From: Pyrinomonadaceae bacterium
GTDB taxonomy: Bacteria; Acidobacteriota; Blastocatellia; Pyrinomonadales; Pyrinomonadaceae
NCBI GenBank assembly: GCA_021228405.1
Contig: JAJQRF010000001.1
Coordinates: forward strand, 434,001 to 498,000
DNA length: 64,000 nucleotides
Direction of reading: 5' to 3'
A program made the translations under genes and the position numbers. The notes beneath the pieces were generated by a model. That model was given only the letters and a program-made list of their open reading frames with translations, was not told where the DNA came from and did not search any database. Positions 4,995-54,501 of the stretch are shown in pieces. Numbering within the stretch: position 1 is the stretch's first letter; the number at the start of each line of letters is the position of its first letter.

Positions 4995-6365
4995 ATGGCA
5001 AAGGAAAAAGTAATCATTATCGGCGCAGGTCTTTCGGGTTCTCTGCTTGCAATTTATCTCGCCAAACGCGGTATCGAGTGCGAAATTTACGAGGCTCGCG
5101 GCGATATGCGTAAAGAAACAATGTCGGCAGGACGTTCGATCAATCTCGCGCTTTCCAATCGCGGAATCGCGGCGTTAAAGGAAGTCGGCTTGGATGAATA
5201 TATGTTGTCGGAAGCCGTTCCGATGTATGGACGAATGATTCACGACGTTCAGGGAAATCAAAAACTTCTGCCGTATTCAGGGAGAAAAGGCGAATATATC
5301 AACTCGGTTTCGCGTTCGGGATTGAACATCGCTTTGATGAATGAAGCCGAAAAATACGACGGCGTAAAATTCTTTTTCAATACGAAATGCGCCGAATTCG
5401 ACTGCAAAACGGGCGAAGCAAAACTCGAAAACGGCGAAGTCTTAAAAGGTGACTGTATCATCGGCACGGACGGCGCGGGTTCGGTCATCCGCAACGCGAT
5501 GCTGTCGGATTTTCCGCGTTTTAACTACTCGATTCAATGGCTCGAACACGGCTACAAAGAACTTCACATTCCGCCGAAGGATTTGGGATTTGGGAATTCG
5601 GATTCGGGATTGAAAAATTTCTCTGACGAATTGTTTCAAATGGAGAAAAATGCTCTGCACATCTGGGCGCGCGGTTCGTTTATGATGATCGCCTTGCCGA
5701 ATTTCGACGGAAGTTTTACCTGCACGCTTTTTCTCGCGCACAAAGGCGAAAACAGTTTCGAGCAATTAGTGGACGAAAAATCTTTGATGAATTTCTTTGA
5801 AACGAACTTTGCCGATTCGATTTCGCTGATGCCGACTTTGACGGAAGATTTTTTCACTAATCCGACGGGAAATCTCGGCACGGTCAAATGTTTTCCGTGG
5901 AATGTGGCTGGGAAGTCTTTGCTGATCGGCGATTCGGCACACGCCGTCGTGCCTTTTTACGGGCAAGGAATGAACGCTTCGTTTGAAGATTGCCGCATTT
6001 TGAATCAATTGATCGAACAACACGGAACGGATTGGGAAAAAGTTTTCAACGAATTTACCACCGTCAGAAAACCGAACGCCGACGCGATCGCGCAAATGGC
6101 GGAAGAAAATTTTTACGAAATGCGCGATGCCGTCGCCGATCCTGTTTTCCAGAAAAAACGCGAACTCGAAACCAAGCTCGAACAAACGTTTCCCGATTAT
6201 TTCTCGAAATATTCAATGGTCACTTTCCGCGAAGATTTGCCTTATTCGGTCGCCAAAGAAAAGGGCAACGCGCAGGATAAAATGCTGATGGAAATCTGTG
6301 CGGAAATTGATGATGTCAGCAAATTGGATTTGAATGAAATTTTTGAAAATGTAAAAACTATTTAG
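4995..6365 (+). CDS. kmo: Kynurenine 3-monooxygenase
   Basis: FAD- and NADPH-dependent hydroxylase converting L-kynurenine to 3-hydroxykynurenine. The 456-residue protein begins with the Rossmann motif IIIGAGLSGSLLAIYLAKRG, followed by the GRSINLALSNRG segment of the family, the FAD motif GTDGAGSVIR, and the second FAD motif LLIGDSAHAVVPFYGQGMNA. Residues ~195-207 (DLGFGNSDSGLKN) come from a GGATTTGGGATTTGGGA-type 'word' insertion. The last 27 codons are duplicated 913 bp downstream (7192-7272) around an HNH cassette, so this C-terminus (ENVKTI-stop) may be either the original or the substituted copy. Works with kynU, and possibly with the cyclase-family gene at 11378. Confidence 0.95.
   Translation: MAKEKVIIIGAGLSGSLLAIYLAKRGIECEIYEARGDMRKETMSAGRSINLALSNRGIAALKEVGLDEYMLSEAVPMYGRMIHDVQGNQKLLPYSGRKGEYINSVSRSGLNIALMNEAEKYDGVKFFFNTKCAEFDCKTGEAKLENGEVLKGDCIIGTDGAGSVIRNAMLSDFPRFNYSIQWLEHGYKELHIPPKDLGFGNSDSGLKNFSDELFQMEKNALHIWARGSFMMIALPNFDGSFTCTLFLAHKGENSFEQLVDEKSLMNFFETNFADSISLMPTLTEDFFTNPTGNLGTVKCFPWNVAGKSLLIGDSAHAVVPFYGQGMNASFEDCRILNQLIEQHGTDWEKVFNEFTTVRKPNADAIAQMAEENFYEMRDAVADPVFQKKRELETKLEQTFPDYFSKYSMVTFREDLPYSVAKEKGNAQDKMLMEICAEIDDVSKLDLNEIFENVKTI
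5579..5612. repeat. In-frame 'word' repeat insertion inside kmo
   Basis: GGATTTGGGATTTGGGAATT followed by CGGATTCGGGATTG, a phrase iterated about every 7 nt. In frame; it adds roughly 11-13 residues between two conserved parts of the monooxygenase. Confidence 0.75.
6279..6359 (+). repeat. Direct repeat, upstream copy (kmo 3' end)
   Basis: 81 bp, 74 of 81 identical to 7192-7272 with no gaps (repeat-to-repeat distance 913 bp). Encodes the last residues of kmo, from the motif MLMEICAEIDD onward. The copies flank the 127-residue and HNH genes. Confidence 0.95.
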
Positions 6366-8985: not shown

Positions 8986-9216
8986 CTAAAATAATCGTGT
9001 GAAGGAAAAAATATTCGGGCGAATATATTTTTTATTCACGCGATTATTTTTTATATTTGGACGATTATTTAAATTAGTCGCACGATTATTTTTTTCCGTC
9101 GCGTGACTATTTTTTATAATCGGACGATTATTTTTTTCCGTCACGTGACTATTTTTTCCGTCAGCGCGATTATAATTTCCGTTCACACGACTGAAAAACA
9201 TATTCACGTTAATATT
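8986..9216. repeat. 21-bp tandem array A (11 units)
   Basis: Exact 21-bp period from about 8986 to 9216 with no indels. Typical + strand units have the form TTTTTCCGTC-RCGTGACTATT or TTTTATAATC-GGACGATTATT. Most units contain a short dyad (ATAATCG-GA-CGATTAT, or GTCACGTGAC). It fills the gap between the 3' ends of two convergent genes. The frame stays open only because 21 is a multiple of 3. Edge units are degenerate. Confidence 0.9.
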
Positions 9217-9249
9217 TTGTCGATTAAGCTGTCCCAAATATTTCGGGTA

Positions 9250-28405: not shown

Positions 28406-28636
28406 TCCGTGGAGAATCTGCATTTCTCCGTGGAGAATCTGAAATTCTCCATTCAGAATTCAGGATTCTCCACGGAAAATTTGAAATTCTCCATTCATAA
28501 TCTGCGTTTCTCCGTGGAGAATTTGAAATTCTCCATTCAGAATTTGCGTTTCTCCATTCACAATCCGCGATTCTCCGTGGAGAATTTGAAATCCTCCATT
28601 CAGAATTCAGGATTCTCCACGGAAAATTTGAAATTT
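28406..28636. repeat. 21-bp tandem array B (11 units)
   Basis: Eleven consecutive 21-bp units with no indels, of forms such as TCCGTGGAGA-ATTTGAAATTC and TCCATTCAGA-ATTCAGGATTC. Unit junctions make dyads TTCTCC-GT-GGAGAA and GAATTT-G-AAATTC. Period 21 leaves an open frame that spells heptads like SVENLKF and SIQNSGF, but a start context and codon signal are missing, so it is treated as non-coding. Between the TPR gene and era. Confidence 0.93.
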
Positions 28637-28739
28637 TCAGCCGAATTTATTGTCTTCAGACATTCCAAACCGAAAGTAAAAAGACGATAAACTTTTCCGC
28701 CTTTTCACATTTGCGCTTTCTTCTGCTAATTTCTATTGA

Positions 28740-35908: not shown

Positions 35909-35963
35909 CGGATAACTGATAACTGAAGTTTCTCGTTATCAATTATCCGTTATCAGTTATCAT
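35907..35963. repeat. Inverted 'word' repeat P8 (GATAACTGATAAC)
   Basis: Left GATAACGGATAACTGATAAC, right GTTATCAATTATCCGTTATC then AGTTATCATC. It supplies the stop codon of prmA on one side and the final Asp-Asp-Asn-stop of the convergent YCF48 gene on the other. The same phrase occurs in frame within nadB. Confidence 0.85.
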
Positions 35964-37938
35964 CTTTTTTCGGCGGCGGCGAAGCAAGCGGAATATCGCC
36001 GTCGTCGGTGATCGTGACGAGCGGCTGGCGGATTTTCGGTTTAACTTTTGCAGTTCCGATCTTCAAGGTCGGCGGAATTTTCGCCGAAGACGTGGTTTTA
36101 ACAGTCGATAGAACTTCCGAACGTTTCAGAATCGCACCGCCGCGCCCGACGATCCAGAGGTCTGTCCCGCCGAGATAAACGACCGCCTGCAACGCGTTGC
36201 TCGTCACATTTGCCTGTGTTTCCCAGGTTTTCCCGCCGTCTTCCGTCCGCAAAACCGAGCCGAGTTCGCCGACCGCGATCGCTTGCAAACGTCCGTATGA
36301 TGTAACCGCAAAAAGATTCGTTTTGACGGGCGATTCCTGATCTATCCAGGTTTCGCCGCCGTCTTCCGTCCGCAGGATCGTGCCCGACGCACCGACCGCA
36401 AAACCCGTTTTCGCATCGAAAAACGAAACGGCGTAAAGATTTTCTTTTAGATTCGTCTTGATTTTCGTCCAGGTTTCGCCGCCGTCCGGGGTTTTCAAAA
36501 TCGTTCCGCGATCACCGATCACAACACCGTTCTTTTCGTCGGTAAACTTCACATCTTCGAGCCAGAAACGCGTGCCGGATTCGACAACTTCCCAATACGC
36601 GCCGCCCGAAACTGTTTTAACGATCATTCCGTTCGCGCCGACCGCAAAGCCCGTTTTTTCATTGACGAAATAAACGCCCGAAAGGTCTTCGGTGATATTT
36701 GAAATTCCTTTTCCCCAGCTTGCACCGCCGTTGATCGTGCGGACGACCGTTCCTTTGTCGCCGACCGCCCACCCCTTTTCCGCGCTTACGAAATTCAGTG
36801 CGTTGAGATTTTCCGTCGTGTCCGAAAAAACCGGAAGCCACATTTTTCCGCCGTCGTTGGTGAGCCAAATGCGCCCGCGCGAACCGACCGAAACGCCGAA
36901 TTCTTCGTTGAAAAGTGCGATGTCGTTAACGTCTTCGCGTCCGCCTTCGCTCAATCTCTGCCAGGAATAACCGCCGTCATCGGTGCGGACGATCAGACCG
37001 CTTTCACCGACCGCCCAACCCGTAAAACTGTCGGCAAAATAAAGCGAAACAAGCTTCGGATTTGTCCGCACGTTAAACGGCAGCCACGTGTTTCCGCCGT
37101 CCCCTGTCAGCCAAACCATCCCATTGGCATCGGTCATCGAGCCGTTTTTCTCGCCGGAAAAGCTGACGGCAAGAAAATCCGCGCGGCTGTAAACATTGAT
37201 GCGCGTCCAGGTTTCGCCCGCATCTTCGCTTCGCGCCACGCAACCGCCGTAACCGATCGCGACGATCTTTTCAGCCGAAATAAACGCCGCGCTCGAAATC
37301 AACGACGCGCCGCAAGGCTGATCTGTTTTCCAATTTTCACCGCCGTTTTTGGTCGTCAGAACGATGCCGTTTTGCCCGACGATGACGGCTTTTTCAGCAT
37401 CGAAAGCCGAAACTTTGAGCAAATGTTCCCTGTTTTCAACCTTCTTGCTTTGCCACGTCAACCCGCCGTCGACGGTTTTCAAAATGCTTCCGTAAGTCCC
37501 GACGGCAAAGCCCGTCTGAAAATTTTCGCCCGTGAAATTTACGCCGTAAAGATGATCTTTCGTGTCGGTTTGCCCGGTTTTCCAATCTTTTCCGCCGTTG
37601 TCGGTTAAAAGAATCGTCCCGCGCGCGCCGACGATCACGGCGTTTTTCTTATCGCGCACGAAAACGGAAGAAAGCGTCGTATCGGTCGGCGAAGTTTGCC
37701 GAAGCCATTTGAAACCGCCGTTTTCGGTGCGCAGAATCGTATTATCCGCGCCGACCGCAAAGCCGTTTTCCTTATCCTTTGCAAAATGTATCGCATAAAG
37801 CGGATTTCCCTGCGGTAAAGGATTCTGCCACGTCCAGCCGAGGGCGTTGCGTTTCTGAGGAAAAGCGAAAGAATAGCCACAAAAAAGCACAAAAAGCGCA
37901 AAAATGACTTTTAAAAATTTGTGTTTATCCGTGTGCAT
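35953..37938 (-). CDS. Secreted YCF48/BNR-repeat propeller protein
   Basis: A 661-residue protein with a signal-like N-terminus (LKVIFALFVLFCGYSFAFPQ). The body is about 13 repeats of ~41 residues, each with a GFAVGANGMI-type strand and an ILRTEDGGETW-type turn, forming beta-propellers like the photosystem II assembly factor YCF48 and BNR-repeat proteins. In heterotrophs such proteins are extracellular scaffolds of unknown role. The last ~50 residues are basic and proline-rich, ending PLASPPPKKDDN, of which DDN comes from the repeat P8. The start codon sits in a GTGCATCTGTGGTTAA phrase of the same 'word' type, so the true start might be slightly downstream. Confidence 0.85.
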   Translation of the reverse strand: MHTDKHKFLKVIFALFVLFCGYSFAFPQKRNALGWTWQNPLPQGNPLYAIHFAKDKENGFAVGADNTILRTENGGFKWLRQTSPTDTTLSSVFVRDKKNAVIVGARGTILLTDNGGKDWKTGQTDTKDHLYGVNFTGENFQTGFAVGTYGSILKTVDGGLTWQSKKVENREHLLKVSAFDAEKAVIVGQNGIVLTTKNGGENWKTDQPCGASLISSAAFISAEKIVAIGYGGCVARSEDAGETWTRINVYSRADFLAVSFSGEKNGSMTDANGMVWLTGDGGNTWLPFNVRTNPKLVSLYFADSFTGWAVGESGLIVRTDDGGYSWQRLSEGGREDVNDIALFNEEFGVSVGSRGRIWLTNDGGKMWLPVFSDTTENLNALNFVSAEKGWAVGDKGTVVRTINGGASWGKGISNITEDLSGVYFVNEKTGFAVGANGMIVKTVSGGAYWEVVESGTRFWLEDVKFTDEKNGVVIGDRGTILKTPDGGETWTKIKTNLKENLYAVSFFDAKTGFAVGASGTILRTEDGGETWIDQESPVKTNLFAVTSYGRLQAIAVGELGSVLRTEDGGKTWETQANVTSNALQAVVYLGGTDLWIVGRGGAILKRSEVLSTVKTTSSAKIPPTLKIGTAKVKPKIRQPLVTITDDGDIPLASPPPKKDDN

Positions 37939-41400: not shown

Positions 41401-41510
41401 CTTTCGATTTTGGATTTTAGATTTTGGATTTCGGATTTAATCTCTAATTTTAGAATATATTTCGGGAAAGAAAAAGGCGGTAATCGAAGTTAGAATTTTG
41501 TTTAAATGTA

Positions 41511-41612
41511 AGAATTTGCCCACGAAATACACGAAAATCACGAAAAAGAAAATGAAATTAAAAGTTTTCTTCTTTTTTTCGTTTGATTCGTGTATTTCGC
41601 GGGCAAATTCTT
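41511..41612. repeat. Long imperfect inverted 'word' repeat P3
   Basis: Left arm AATTTGCCCACGAAATACAC and GAAAATCACGAAAAAG; right arm CGTGTATTTCGCGGGCAAAT. Same phrase as at 792-923. A related GTGTTATTCGTGTTATTCGT run follows at 41648-41672, and a GATTTTGGATTTTAGATTTT run precedes it at 41405-41435. Confidence 0.85.
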
Positions 41613-41682: not shown

Positions 41683-41979
41683 ATGAAAATCGAAACAGGC
41701 GACAGCGTGATTCTTATTTTGCACAATCCGCGTGAAAAAGTGATCGGGATTCTGCACGAAATAAATGCTTCGGGCATTTTCGTGCGCGGGATTGACTTGA
41801 ATTACTTCGACGAATGGACGCGTGCGATCAAAAACGGCGAACCTTTTTTGCAGATGCAGGATTATTTTTTCCCGATGTGGCGCGTCGAAAGAATGTCGAA
41901 GGACGAAGCGACGGCGGAAATTCCTTCGATGGCGGAACAATTCAGACAGCGGACGGGCTTCGATCTGGTCGAATTTTAA
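41683..41979 (+). CDS. Conserved hypothetical protein, 98 residues
   Basis: Small protein starting MKIETGDSVILILHNPREKV, with a beta-rich N-terminus (VIGILHEINASGIFVRGIDL) resembling SH3/KOW- or Hfq-like barrels, then FDEWTRAIKNGEP and a conserved-looking DYFFPMWRVERMSKDE segment and a helical tail. No family is firmly recognised; the pattern (GILHEIN..GIFVRGIDL..FFPMWRVER) suggests a small conserved acidobacterial family. Function unknown. It stands between inverted repeat P3 and 21-bp array C, convergent with the kinase gene. Confidence 0.7.
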   Translation: MKIETGDSVILILHNPREKVIGILHEINASGIFVRGIDLNYFDEWTRAIKNGEPFLQMQDYFFPMWRVERMSKDEATAEIPSMAEQFRQRTGFDLVEF

Positions 41980-42017: not shown

Positions 42018-42332
42018 TGAACTCCTTTTACTCCGAAGGGAGTTCCTTCTGAACCAAAAGGAGTTCCCGCTGAATAAAAAGGAGTTCCTTCTGCACTAAA
42101 AGGAGTTCCCGCTGAATAAAAAGGAGTTCCTTCTGAACTAAAAGGAACTCCTTCTGTTATAAAAGGAGTTCCTTCTGAACCAGAAGGAACTCCCGCTGAA
42201 CCAAAAGGAACTCCTTTTAGTGCAGAAGGTGTTCCCGCTGAACCAAAAGGAACTCCTTTTAGTGCAGAAGGTGTTCCCGCTGAACCAAAAGGAACTCCTT
42301 CTGTTATAAAAGGAGTCCCTTTTTATTCGGTC
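42018..42332. repeat. 21-bp tandem array C (15 units)
   Basis: Fifteen 21-bp units without indels. Each begins with an 8-nt core GGAGTTCC or its complement GGAACTCC (once GGTGTTCC), followed by a 13-nt segment such as TTCTGAACCAGAA (a dyad) or CGCTGAACCAAAA. The core flips between the two orientations along the array, and two-unit blocks (42207-42248 and 42249-42290) are repeated exactly. Lies between the 3' ends of convergent genes. Confidence 0.94.
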
Positions 42333-42354: not shown

Positions 42355-45093
42355 TTATTCAAATTTGCGGAGTTCGTGTTCGCCTTGTTCGCGGATTTTT
42401 TTCAGACTTACGAATAAAACATTGCGATTTTCGAGTTCGCGCAGTTTGGTTAAGCCTTTTTCGAGGTTTGCTCTGGCTTCCGGGAGAAGTTTGGCGCGTT
42501 CGTTCGGCGCGGTTTCGGCTTTTTTCGACTGAACGATGCCGAGTGCGGCGTAAAGTGCCGTTCCGTTGATCTCGATGACCTCAAAACCTTTCGCTTCCGT
42601 TTGCAGTTCGCCGTAAATTTCGATTCCGCGCCGCAAAACTTTCCCGGCTTCGTCAAGCCGGTTCGCATCGCTCAGAATCGTGCCGAAATAGAGCAAATGC
42701 GTGACGTATGAATTTTTGATGACTGCATCGTTTTTCTTTTCTGCGAGAAATTCTTCCTGCTGTCGGCTTGCTTCGCGCAATCTTTCAACGCCTTCGGCAA
42801 AATGTCCGTTCTTTGCCAGAACGCGTCCCGATTTGCTCAAAGTATAGGTAACTCCGGCGCGTGAGAAAAAATCGTTGGCATCGCGCTTGAAAAGTTCCTC
42901 GCCCATCTTTCGCGCTTCTTCATAATTTTCCATCGCTTCGCCGATCTTTCCCTGCTCCGCCAAAATGTCGCCCAGATACATCAAAGAAACCGTGAGTTGA
43001 CGGCGTTGTTGCAAATTTTCCGGCTCTTTCTGCAAGATCGCGCGGCGGATTTCGAGTTGTTTCTGAAATTTTTCCAGCGCGCCCTGCAAATCGCCGAGTT
43101 CGCTCAATTCGGGATGACCGAGCAAATTGCCGAGCCGACCGTTGACCGCCGCAAAAGTAGAAAGAGCAGATGTATCATCGGGTTTGAGAATTGTTAGTTT
43201 TTCGGTGTTTTCATAAGCCTGCCGCATCGTCGCACGCGCCGTTTCCATATCCAGACGGCTTTCCGAGTATAAACTTCCGACCTGCATCTGCAAACGCGCA
43301 AGCTGTGTCAGCAATTCGGTGTTTGCGGGTTCGGCTTTCAAAAGTTCGTTCAATAAATTCTCGGCTTTCCGATAAATAGCCCGCGTTTCGTCGGCATCCA
43401 ATTGAATGTAATTGAGGTTTCCGAACTTTTGATAAGTTTGCGCGAGTTTTAATTTTACGGCTTTATCGTTCGGCGTTTGCGCGAGAATTTCCTCTTCGAT
43501 GGCGACCGCCTTGCGCATATTTTCGAGGGCTTTTTCGACGTTTCCCAAACTTCCGCCGTAAGGCGCGCCTTGCAGATCGGAAAGTTTGATATAAGCCGCC
43601 GCGAGTTCGCTTTGCAGTTCGATGTCGTTTTTTGCGTCCTGCGCGAGATTGTCGAGATACGCGCTCGCATCCTTCAAAAGCATCTCGCGGACTTCCGACG
43701 AATTCGGCAGATTCGTGATCGCATCGGTGTATTTGAAAACGACGTTATTCGCGATCTGACGGACTTCGGCAAAACGTTTTTCGGCTAAAATTCTCTGCCT
43801 TTCGGCGCGAACGGCTTGCCAGACGGCGATCGTGATGCCCGACAAAAGCGACAGCAGAATAAAAGCGGCGGCAAAAACTCCGGCGCGGTTTCGCCTGACG
43901 AATTTCGCGGCGCGATAAGAAAACGTCGCGGGACGCGCCGAGATCGGCAAACCTTCGAGATACCGCCGAATGTCTTCCGAAAATTCCTGCGCGGAATTGT
44001 AACGCGCCGACGATTCTTTTCTGAGAGATTTGAGAATAATCGTGTCAAGATCACCTTTTAAGGATTTTAGATTTTGGATTTTGGATTTCGGATTTGCGGT
44101 TTGTTCGTAGCTCGTTGTTAGTGGTTCTTTGATTTTTGTTGTTCCAACCGACCACCGACCACTGACCACCGACGACGGTTTCACGGGTTCGCTTTCTAAA
44201 ATTGCCTGTTCCATTTCGCCGCGATTTCTTGATTTCAGGCGGTAAGGTTTCTGTCCCGTCAAAAGTTCGTAAAGAATCACGCCGAGGCTGTAAATGTCGC
44301 TCGCCGTTCCGATGCGTTCGCCGCGAATCTGTTCGGGCGAAGCATAAGCCGGAGTCATCATCCCGAGTTCGGTCGCCGTTCCGATCCCGGCTTCGGATTC
44401 GGGCGTGAGAATTTTTCCGATGCCGAAATCGAGCAATTTTATGCTTTCATCTCCGGTCACGAGAATGTTTGACGGTTTCAGATCGCGGTGAATGACGAGA
44501 TTCTGGTGCGCGTATTGAACCGCCGCGCAAACCTGCCGAAACAGTTTCAATTTCGCTTCGATGGAAAGTTCCTTTTTATGACAGTAATCGTCGATAAAAG
44601 TTCCCTCGACATATTCCATCGCGTAAAACGGAAGTCCGTCGTCGGTCATTCCGCCGTCGAGAAAACGCGCAATGAAAGGATGTTCGAGCGATGAAAGTAT
44701 CTTTTGTTCGTGGCGAAAACGCGAAAGGATCGCGTCCGTATCCATTCCGCGTTTGATGACTTTGAGAGCGACGCGCTGTTTGAAATTGTCGGTTTCGCGC
44801 ACGGCTTCGTAAACCGCGCCCATTCCGCCGCGACCGATCTCGCGCAGAATTTTATAATTTCCGATCTTTTCGGGAGTTTTATTTTGGTTTACGTTCGAGA
44901 GAAGCTCAAAGGCGTTTTGTTCGAGCGTGTCGTCCTCGCCGTCTTCGGTCGCAAACGACAGCATTTCTTCGATTTCGGCACGCAAGTCCGCGTCCTGGCA
45001 GTTTTCGGACAAAAAAGATTCTCTGTCTTTTTCAGCCAATTCGACTGCCGAATTGAAAAGCTCTTTTATCTGGCGGTAACGCTCCGAATCCAT
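42355..45093 (-). CDS. Serine/threonine protein kinase with C-terminal TPR region
   Basis: A 912-residue Hanks-type kinase. After an N-terminal ~75-residue helical region, the kinase domain (~80-400) has the glycine loop GRGGMGAVYEA, ATP lysine in VALKVIKRG, catalytic VIHRDLKPSNILV and LLDFGIGK. Residues ~307-343 are a 'word' insertion (SVVSGRWSVG then NPKSKIQNLKS). A single TM helix follows (VFAAAFILLSLLSGITIAVW, ~405-425), and the rest is an outside TPR region of ~480 residues (helices such as NLNYIQLDADETRAIYRKAE). This kinase-TM-TPR layout is common in acidobacteria and is thought to sense peptides or envelope state. No substrate is visible. Confidence 0.93.
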   Translation of the reverse strand: MDSERYRQIKELFNSAVELAEKDRESFLSENCQDADLRAEIEEMLSFATEDGEDDTLEQNAFELLSNVNQNKTPEKIGNYKILREIGRGGMGAVYEAVRETDNFKQRVALKVIKRGMDTDAILSRFRHEQKILSSLEHPFIARFLDGGMTDDGLPFYAMEYVEGTFIDDYCHKKELSIEAKLKLFRQVCAAVQYAHQNLVIHRDLKPSNILVTGDESIKLLDFGIGKILTPESEAGIGTATELGMMTPAYASPEQIRGERIGTASDIYSLGVILYELLTGQKPYRLKSRNRGEMEQAILESEPVKPSSVVSGRWSVGTTKIKEPLTTSYEQTANPKSKIQNLKSLKGDLDTIILKSLRKESSARYNSAQEFSEDIRRYLEGLPISARPATFSYRAAKFVRRNRAGVFAAAFILLSLLSGITIAVWQAVRAERQRILAEKRFAEVRQIANNVVFKYTDAITNLPNSSEVREMLLKDASAYLDNLAQDAKNDIELQSELAAAYIKLSDLQGAPYGGSLGNVEKALENMRKAVAIEEEILAQTPNDKAVKLKLAQTYQKFGNLNYIQLDADETRAIYRKAENLLNELLKAEPANTELLTQLARLQMQVGSLYSESRLDMETARATMRQAYENTEKLTILKPDDTSALSTFAAVNGRLGNLLGHPELSELGDLQGALEKFQKQLEIRRAILQKEPENLQQRRQLTVSLMYLGDILAEQGKIGEAMENYEEARKMGEELFKRDANDFFSRAGVTYTLSKSGRVLAKNGHFAEGVERLREASRQQEEFLAEKKNDAVIKNSYVTHLLYFGTILSDANRLDEAGKVLRRGIEIYGELQTEAKGFEVIEINGTALYAALGIVQSKKAETAPNERAKLLPEARANLEKGLTKLRELENRNVLFVSLKKIREQGEHELRKFE
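44062..44176. repeat. In-frame 'word' repeat insertion in the kinase gene
   Basis: Runs of GGATTTTAGATTTTGGATTT, then ATTTCGGATTTGCGG, then GCTCGTTGTTAGTGGTT, then CGACCACCGACCACTGACCA. Adds ~37 residues in the C-lobe while keeping the frame. Several phrases of the intergenic class meet in one place. Confidence 0.85.
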
Positions 45094-45126
45094 AAGAAGC
45101 GTGGTTATTGTAAAGTAAACGTTGAA

Positions 45127-45212
45127 AAGTTAAAAGTGCAAAGTTAAAAGTTAAAAGTTAAAAATCCCGAAGCCACTTTTTTAATTTTTAACTTTTAACT
45201 TTGCACTTTTAT
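45127..45212. repeat. Inverted 'word' repeat P9 (AAGTTAAAAGTT)
   Basis: Left AAAGTGCAAAGTTAAAAGTT repeated, right TTAACTTTTAACTTTGCACT. Lies between the DUF4097-like gene and the kinase gene; the DUF4097-like stop codon is at its end. Confidence 0.85.
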
Positions 45213-51911: not shown

Positions 51912-51986
51912 GCCGACTTAGCTCAGTGGTAGAGCACTCGCTTCACACGCGATAGGTCACAAGTTCAAATCTTGTAGTCGGCACCA
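51912..51986 (+). tRNA. tRNA-Val (anticodon CAC)
   Basis: Seventy-five nt with encoded CCA. Acceptor GCCGACT pairs with AGTCGGC, D arm GCTCAGTGGTAGAGC, anticodon loop TTCACAC giving CAC (reads GTG, valine), T arm ACAAG-TTCAAAT-CTTGT. The first pair of the anticodon stem (C27-T43) is mismatched. A terminator follows 16 nt later. Confidence 0.93.
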
Positions 51987-54234: not shown

Positions 54235-54501
54235 TTAACCGAAAATTTCGTTTAAGAATTTGTAAATTTTCGTGTAAACGGTTTCTTCCGTTTCTGTCGG
54301 TTGCTGACTGACTAAACCGGTCGTTTGCCCTTGCGGAGAGGTTTTACCTCCACCGATCGGAGTAATGCCGTCTCCGGTAAAACAGGTCGTTTGTCCCTGA
54401 GGACAGGTTTTACTTCCGCCGATCGGAGTAATGCCGTCTCCGGCAAAGGCTGACAGACTCAAAACGAAAGACAAAGTGAACAGAATAATGATTTTTTTCA
54501 T
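54235..54501 (-). CDS. Secreted two-repeat peptide precursor, 88 residues
   Basis: Sec signal MKKIIILFTLSFVLSLSAFA with a clean Ala-x-Ala site, after which the mature part would start GDGITPIGG. The unit GDGITPIGG-x-KT-x-PQGQTT occurs twice, 22 residues apart (first copy with Cys at two positions, second with Ser/Gly). The tail is acidic and aromatic (TETEETVYTKIYKFLNEIFG). Not a known family. The gene is divergent from a TPR/Fis-type regulator, 102 nt between starts. The repeated, secreted, short product beside a TPR regulator suggests a signalling or bacteriocin-like peptide; inference only. Confidence 0.75.
   Translation of the reverse strand: MKKIIILFTLSFVLSLSAFAGDGITPIGGSKTCPQGQTTCFTGDGITPIGGGKTSPQGQTTGLVSQQPTETEETVYTKIYKFLNEIFG

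Follow-up and report, generated by a model that had tools for sequence, protein, structure and literature searches.

Intergenic tandem arrays with a common 20–21-bp period and unrelated sequences in a Pyrinomonadaceae genome

The unit lengths of bacterial VNTRs are broad. Plasmid iterons are directly repeated units, each spanning about two turns of the helix; in B-DNA, two helical turns correspond to 20.8–21.0 bp. REPs, the palindromic units of enterobacteria, Pseudomonas and other bacteria, favour convergent and unidirectional gaps between genes (PMC3733652). Among intergenic tandem repeats, the SPADE survey found heptamers to be the most abundant (PMC6344855), and TAACTGA heptamer repeats have been described in Beggiatoaceae (PMC4679880). 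Here we describe tandem arrays in the genome of a soil or water bacterium of the Pyrinomonadaceae (Acidobacteriota) that resemble each of these systems in part.

The host assembly is 5.72 Mb in size and contains 20 contigs. Judged by its relatives it is probably a MAG; the Era protein encoded in the window is 87% identical to Era of a Pyrinomonadaceae MAG. The window, by which we mean the whole stretch of 64,000 nucleotides that was analysed, is C4:434001-498000. The largest of its arrays, array C, and the two genes at its sides are as follows.

42018–42332, no strand: array C, with an exact 21-bp period over 14 units, plus degenerate edge units
41683–41979, plus strand: gene of a 98-aa protein, on the left side of array C; at least 27 relatives have it conserved
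42355–45093, minus strand: protein kinase plus TPR gene (Ser/Thr kinase-TPR), right of array C

Array C sits in the convergent gap between these two genes, and the 98-aa gene ends 2–3 bp ahead of the detected edge of the array. Cores of the form GG[AT][AG][TC][TC]CC are found at 42039, 42060 and onward to 42312 (n = 14), and all 13 spacings between them are exactly 21 bp. The core variants are GGAGTTCC (six occurrences), GGAACTCC (five), GGTGTTCC (two) and GGAGTCCC (one). The preliminary description had counted 15 units and had noted that the core flips its orientation along the array. The flip is real, as the 8-nt core is found in both orientations; 14 of the units are clear, but the fifteenth, at 42018, is degenerate. 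The dyad score of array C is 0.62, compared to 0.48 for the null (p<0.01, column permutation), and its folding z is about −15 on both strands. Frame 1 of the array contains stops; a terminator scan at the array gave no excess. In the whole genome array C has one sister, C9:15228-15491, with 77% identity. A plasmid or phage origin and an Rfam RNA were rejected, since array C has no match among plasmids and phages and the Rfam search of the window returned only a tRNA at 51912–51983, with no structured-RNA match for the arrays. Upstream of the 98-aa gene, window positions 41512–41612 hold an inverted repeat around GCCCACGAAATACACGAA ... TTCGTGTATTTCGCGGGC, which looks REP-like.

Three further arrays are located in the window.

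9008–9221, no strand: array A, about 10 units, mostly of 21 bp, with the dyad AATCG-nn-CGATT and a T-tract
28406–28645, no strand: array B, about 11 units of 21 bp, with the dyad TTCTCC-nn-GGAGAA
47907–48125, no strand: array D, about 8 units of 21 bp, with the dyad TTCTG...CAGAA

Array A is flanked by convergent YchJ-like and ECF-sigma genes, array B by a 595-aa gene and era (both plus strand), and array D by a DUF58 gene and an ECF-sigma gene (both minus strand); a Rep gene is absent at all four window arrays. When lags of 2–129 were scanned over the 64-kb window, lags 21, 42, 63, 84 and 105 were strong only at the four arrays. TRF picked out the same four places, and the array detector used in this analysis found no array in eight dinucleotide shuffles of the window, so that the four arrays with a 21-bp period first reported are real. 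The dyads ascribed to all four are also borne out, with consensus dyads above the column-permutation null in each (p ≤ 0.01). Two other statements hold in part. The proposed absence of indels is correct for arrays B and C, but array A has lag-20 and lag-18 steps; the four have no common consensus among themselves, but elsewhere in the genome there is one sister for array B and one for array C, that of B being G000:C4:866556-866740. The window also contains a 66-bp direct repeat in two copies (54314–54447) and a 123-bp period (36223–36547) inside the ORF 35953–37938.

The window and further stretches of the genome make up a sample of 1.18 Mb, one fifth of the genome. This sample, which over-represents contig C4 and transposase flanks (its last batch was picked partly around transposase genes), contains 52 arrays of period 20–21; by approximate gene calls based on codon usage, 49 of them lie outside called genes and 3 inside. 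Extrapolated to the genome, this would be about 240 non-coding arrays, close to 1% of the sequence. Among the non-coding arrays of the first 0.86 Mb, the pooled unit-to-unit lags were 21 (1197), 20 (226), 19 (13), 22 (5) and 18 (2); in the arrays of relatives they were 21 (340), 22 (2) and 19 (1). Several arrays have a period of 20 or 20.3, and none has a period of 22. One period across freely changing sequence, as first described, is upheld, but that period is not exactly 21 and the class is one of 20 or 21. The genome-wide period check had been set beforehand as a refutation test, and its outcome favours the class: 20–21 is dominant, and only 3 of the 52 arrays are coding heptad repeats. As a general explanation, a coding heptad repeat was rejected because of the predominance of arrays outside called genes and because the periods of 20 or 20.3 are not multiples of 3. 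The coding repeats, L021:14307-14513, L066:7240-7554 and L073:2629-2758 (e.g. EKQLSD, KHSQILD), have a 21-bp period and were set aside; L177:4526-4808, an array located outside called genes, has 75% identity to the coding one of L066. Higher-order similarity at 42, 63 and 84 bp is seen in the arrays, which indicates that blocks of whole units were duplicated.

The feature common to all arrays is the period, not the dyad. Dyads exceeded the column-permutation null in 22 of 34 arrays tested, including seven arrays of relatives, and thus are common in the class but not universal, contrary to the preliminary description of a class of dyad arrays. L010, L022, L060, L065 and L072 are plain direct repeats with no dyad and little or no hairpin potential. 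Strong self-complementarity is found in about half to two-thirds of the arrays; the folding z averages −5, reaches −15 and is about equal on both strands. Covariation of dyad pairs within arrays is weak (of 2644 pairs, 1556 were complementary compared to 1515 expected), and pair-by-pair selection on the dyads is therefore not required. L193:18158-18426 reverses in phase midway, with eight units one way and then about five in the opposite one; the reversal yields one long hairpin-capable block. A second harmonic of A/T content (about 10 bp) is clear mainly in the period-20 arrays, which tend toward A/T tracts at half period, and in L022. Intrinsic curvature (bent DNA) was rejected as a general explanation, since this harmonic is weak overall.

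By blastn, 44 sequence groups are distinguished among the 52 arrays, with eight pairs. The families are small, of 2–3 copies; array L068 has two sisters. A check of the eight pairs showed that the similarity does not extend past the arrays or their close edges and that the neighbouring genes are unrelated. Compared to 2.7 Mb of relatives, the array sequences have no family in common; the only exceptions are L060, with common GGATTTT heptamers, and L185, with one 46-bp match. Family copies without flank homology, together with this lack of recurrence in relatives, suggest that arrays or units are copied within the genome and turned over fast between genomes. Arrays of the same class and other sequence exist in other genera of the family, where they are more thinly spread and the GC content of the loci ranges from about 0.40 to 0.69.

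Loci with same-class arrays in other genera: L042, L048, L051, L055, L078, L081, L082, L097, L098, L125, L140, L158, L242

Across 349 kb sampled from other families of the same taxonomic class, the sole match was one array of 42-bp period, at L224, which was taken for a putative coding repeat.

Within the family, arrays B, C and D have neighbouring genes in conserved order, and the lengths between these genes can be compared. The gap of array D is 406 bp in the host and 41–155 bp in 20 relatives; that of array B is 432 bp in the host and 2–217 bp in 40 relatives. The stretch with array C is 5.2 kb in the host and 1.9–2.2 kb in 27 relatives, which leaves no room for array C plus the kinase gene. 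The kinase-TPR gene and array C form an extra of about 3.2 kb and seem to have been gained together. As they are absent at the orthologous loci of 20–40 relatives, arrays B, C and D are recent gains. Relatives have arrays near era too, at positions other than in the window.

The arrays are not placed evenly among gaps. With respect to the orientation of the flanking genes, by the approximate gene calls, 17 arrays are in convergent, 23 in tandem (co-directional) and 3 in divergent gaps (n = 43). The convergent share of array-free gaps is only 10–13%, and the excess among arrays has a P of about 2e-5 (gaps of at least 50 bp) to 2e-7 (at least 100 bp). Divergent gaps are under-used, with P from 0.005 (gaps of at least 100 bp) to 0.2 (all gaps).

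Taken together, these observations suggest that spacing, rather than sequence, is what is kept. In our favoured reading, to which we give an even chance, the arrays are lineage-private intergenic minisatellites that resemble REP/BIME, turn over fast and have a unit length locked to two turns of the helix; as for their function, we infer that a role as supercoil or transcription-end elements probably keeps them at gene ends. Replication slippage or unequal exchange would multiply a short seed by whole units at a time, to which the 42-, 63- and 84-bp repeats point; template switching or hairpin-mediated events may turn units or blocks around, and now and then an array or its units would be copied to another locus. 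Helix-phased repeats would set every unit on one face of the DNA, and the dyads could extrude as hairpins or cruciforms. At gene ends the arrays might act in the manner of REP/BIME, as supercoil sinks, as transcription-end barriers or as docking arrays for a shape-reading protein; spacing would be constrained while sequence drifts. Since whole-unit slippage or unequal exchange conserves the existing phase, a lack of indels inside an array is to be expected. The point that needs explanation is that dozens of unrelated sequences have a common 20–21 period. Either helical phase is selected, or the period comes from an ancestor or from fixed-step copying; we favour selection for phase together with a BIME-like role, to which we give roughly even odds, with the neutral explanation next. 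Against the helical-phase reading, period 20 is present and 22 absent, which is not symmetrical about 21.0, and many arrays are without dyads; fast turnover is equally expected of neutral or selfish DNA. Only tentatively do we put forward a bolder version, in which the arrays represent a new class of bacterial chromosomal element, free in sequence and defined only by its two-helical-turn period, which would be made by dedicated copying or read by a phase-sensing protein and would act at transcription ends.

The neutral explanation is possible, albeit on the doubtful side. The arrays would be neutral or selfish minisatellites with a period inherited from one or a few ancestral arrays, or given by fixed-step copying of ~21 nt; their sequences would drift and homogenise, and they would survive at gene ends since promoters and genes are intolerant. 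Fast gain at conserved loci, private sequences in small paralogous families, the 42/63/84 periods and the under-use of divergent (promoter) gaps are all consistent with such an origin. However, drift of the period should give 19 and 22–23 too, and 22 is essentially absent despite several 20-bp arrays; in addition, promoter avoidance alone leaves the convergent-over-tandem excess unexplained. It is unlikely that the arrays are RNA-level elements, transcribed from upstream genes, whose hairpin chains serve termination, 3′-end protection or RNase processing. The gene-end location, the strong folding of some arrays and, in tandem arrays, a slight sense-strand excess of G-T over A-C (59:40, p = 0.07, not significant) argue for a role in RNA, but folding is about equal on both strands, convergent arrays have no G-T bias (53:55), hairpin-free arrays have the same period, and RNA does not account for a period of 20–21 nt. 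An RNA-only function is made less likely by evidence that is strand-symmetric and by a G-T bias that is not significant.

Dyads of 12–18 bp at two-turn spacing are what operator- or iteron-like rows of sites for a sequence-specific dimeric protein would look like, with 21 bp setting the dimers on one helix face. We consider such rows very improbable: more than 40 unrelated consensuses in a fifth of the genome would need equally many proteins, the arrays have no promoter link, and no conserved array was found at the orthologous loci checked. Just as hard to credit is a REP/BIME family made by RAYT transposases, even though the genome has nine Y1 transposase genes, several with REP-like palindromes on their flanks, the L178 transposase is flanked by tandem hairpins of period 22–25, and the gene-end location is as for REPs (PMC3733652). 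The arrays have no common sequence or tag, their period is 20–21 and not 22–25, their families are too many for nine transposases, and they do not obviously track these genes (in G018, several arrays accompany 3 transposases; in G017, there are 16 transposases and no array in 20 kb). The immediate flanks of the nine Y1 genes carry other REP-like palindromes and no 20–21-bp arrays. At L178:5279-5480 and 6039-6134, REP-like palindromes, some of them tandem with the period of 22–25, flank the Y1 (RAYT-like) gene; these hairpin arrays are a possible evolutionary link between REPs and 21-bp arrays.

By extrapolation, arrays that keep the phase of the DNA whatever their sequence would make up about 1% of the genome. 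They would provide a natural experiment on the effects of two-turn periodicity on supercoiling, looping and transcription ends in bacterial chromosomes, or else on a mutational process with a 20–21 nt step.

In the open literature searched, no description of this array class was found. The mismatch with CRISPR, IS ends and REP types noted in the preliminary description is supported for CRISPR, IS ends and the classical REP family. A CRISPR array was rejected on the repeat layout, as the units are degenerate, contiguous and without spacers. Like REP/BIME, the arrays are intergenic, contain units of flipped orientation, which are palindromic in part of the arrays, and are present or absent at orthologous loci, and their distribution over convergent, tandem and divergent gaps (17, 23 and 3) agrees with the location of REPs. 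Imperfect palindromes are a REP/BIME feature that the arrays above the dyad null have and the remainder do not. Different from REPs, which have one tagged consensus (GTAG/CGTC) per family at high copy, the arrays have many private consensuses with 1–3 arrays each, units of 20–21 bp and, in some cases, no palindrome; the lack of a single tagged consensus and the RAYT flanks rule out a classical REP family. The heptamer repeats of cyanobacteria (STRR) and Beggiatoaceae are likewise tandem repeats with a fixed unit in prokaryotic intergenic DNA, and heptamer arrays also occur in the host genome and its relatives. Many such STRR-like 7-bp repeats lie at gene ends in both (window 41402–41438, 44062–44095, 45112–45163 and others), and at L102:11280-11480 they form an inverted pair just past the orthologue of the 98-aa gene. 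STRR heptamers were rejected as the basis of the arrays, whose dominant lags are 21, 42 and 63; as lags of 7, 14 or 28 are lacking and 20-bp arrays exist, the arrays are not simply degenerate heptamers. They may be seen as a counterpart to the unexplained abundance of prokaryotic 7-bp arrays (PMC6344855). With bacterial VNTRs or minisatellites they share tandem units, higher-order duplications and lineage-specific gain, but here a single narrow period dominates across unrelated sequences. Compared to plasmid iterons, they are chromosomal, occupy an estimated 200-plus loci and flip their orientation inside arrays.
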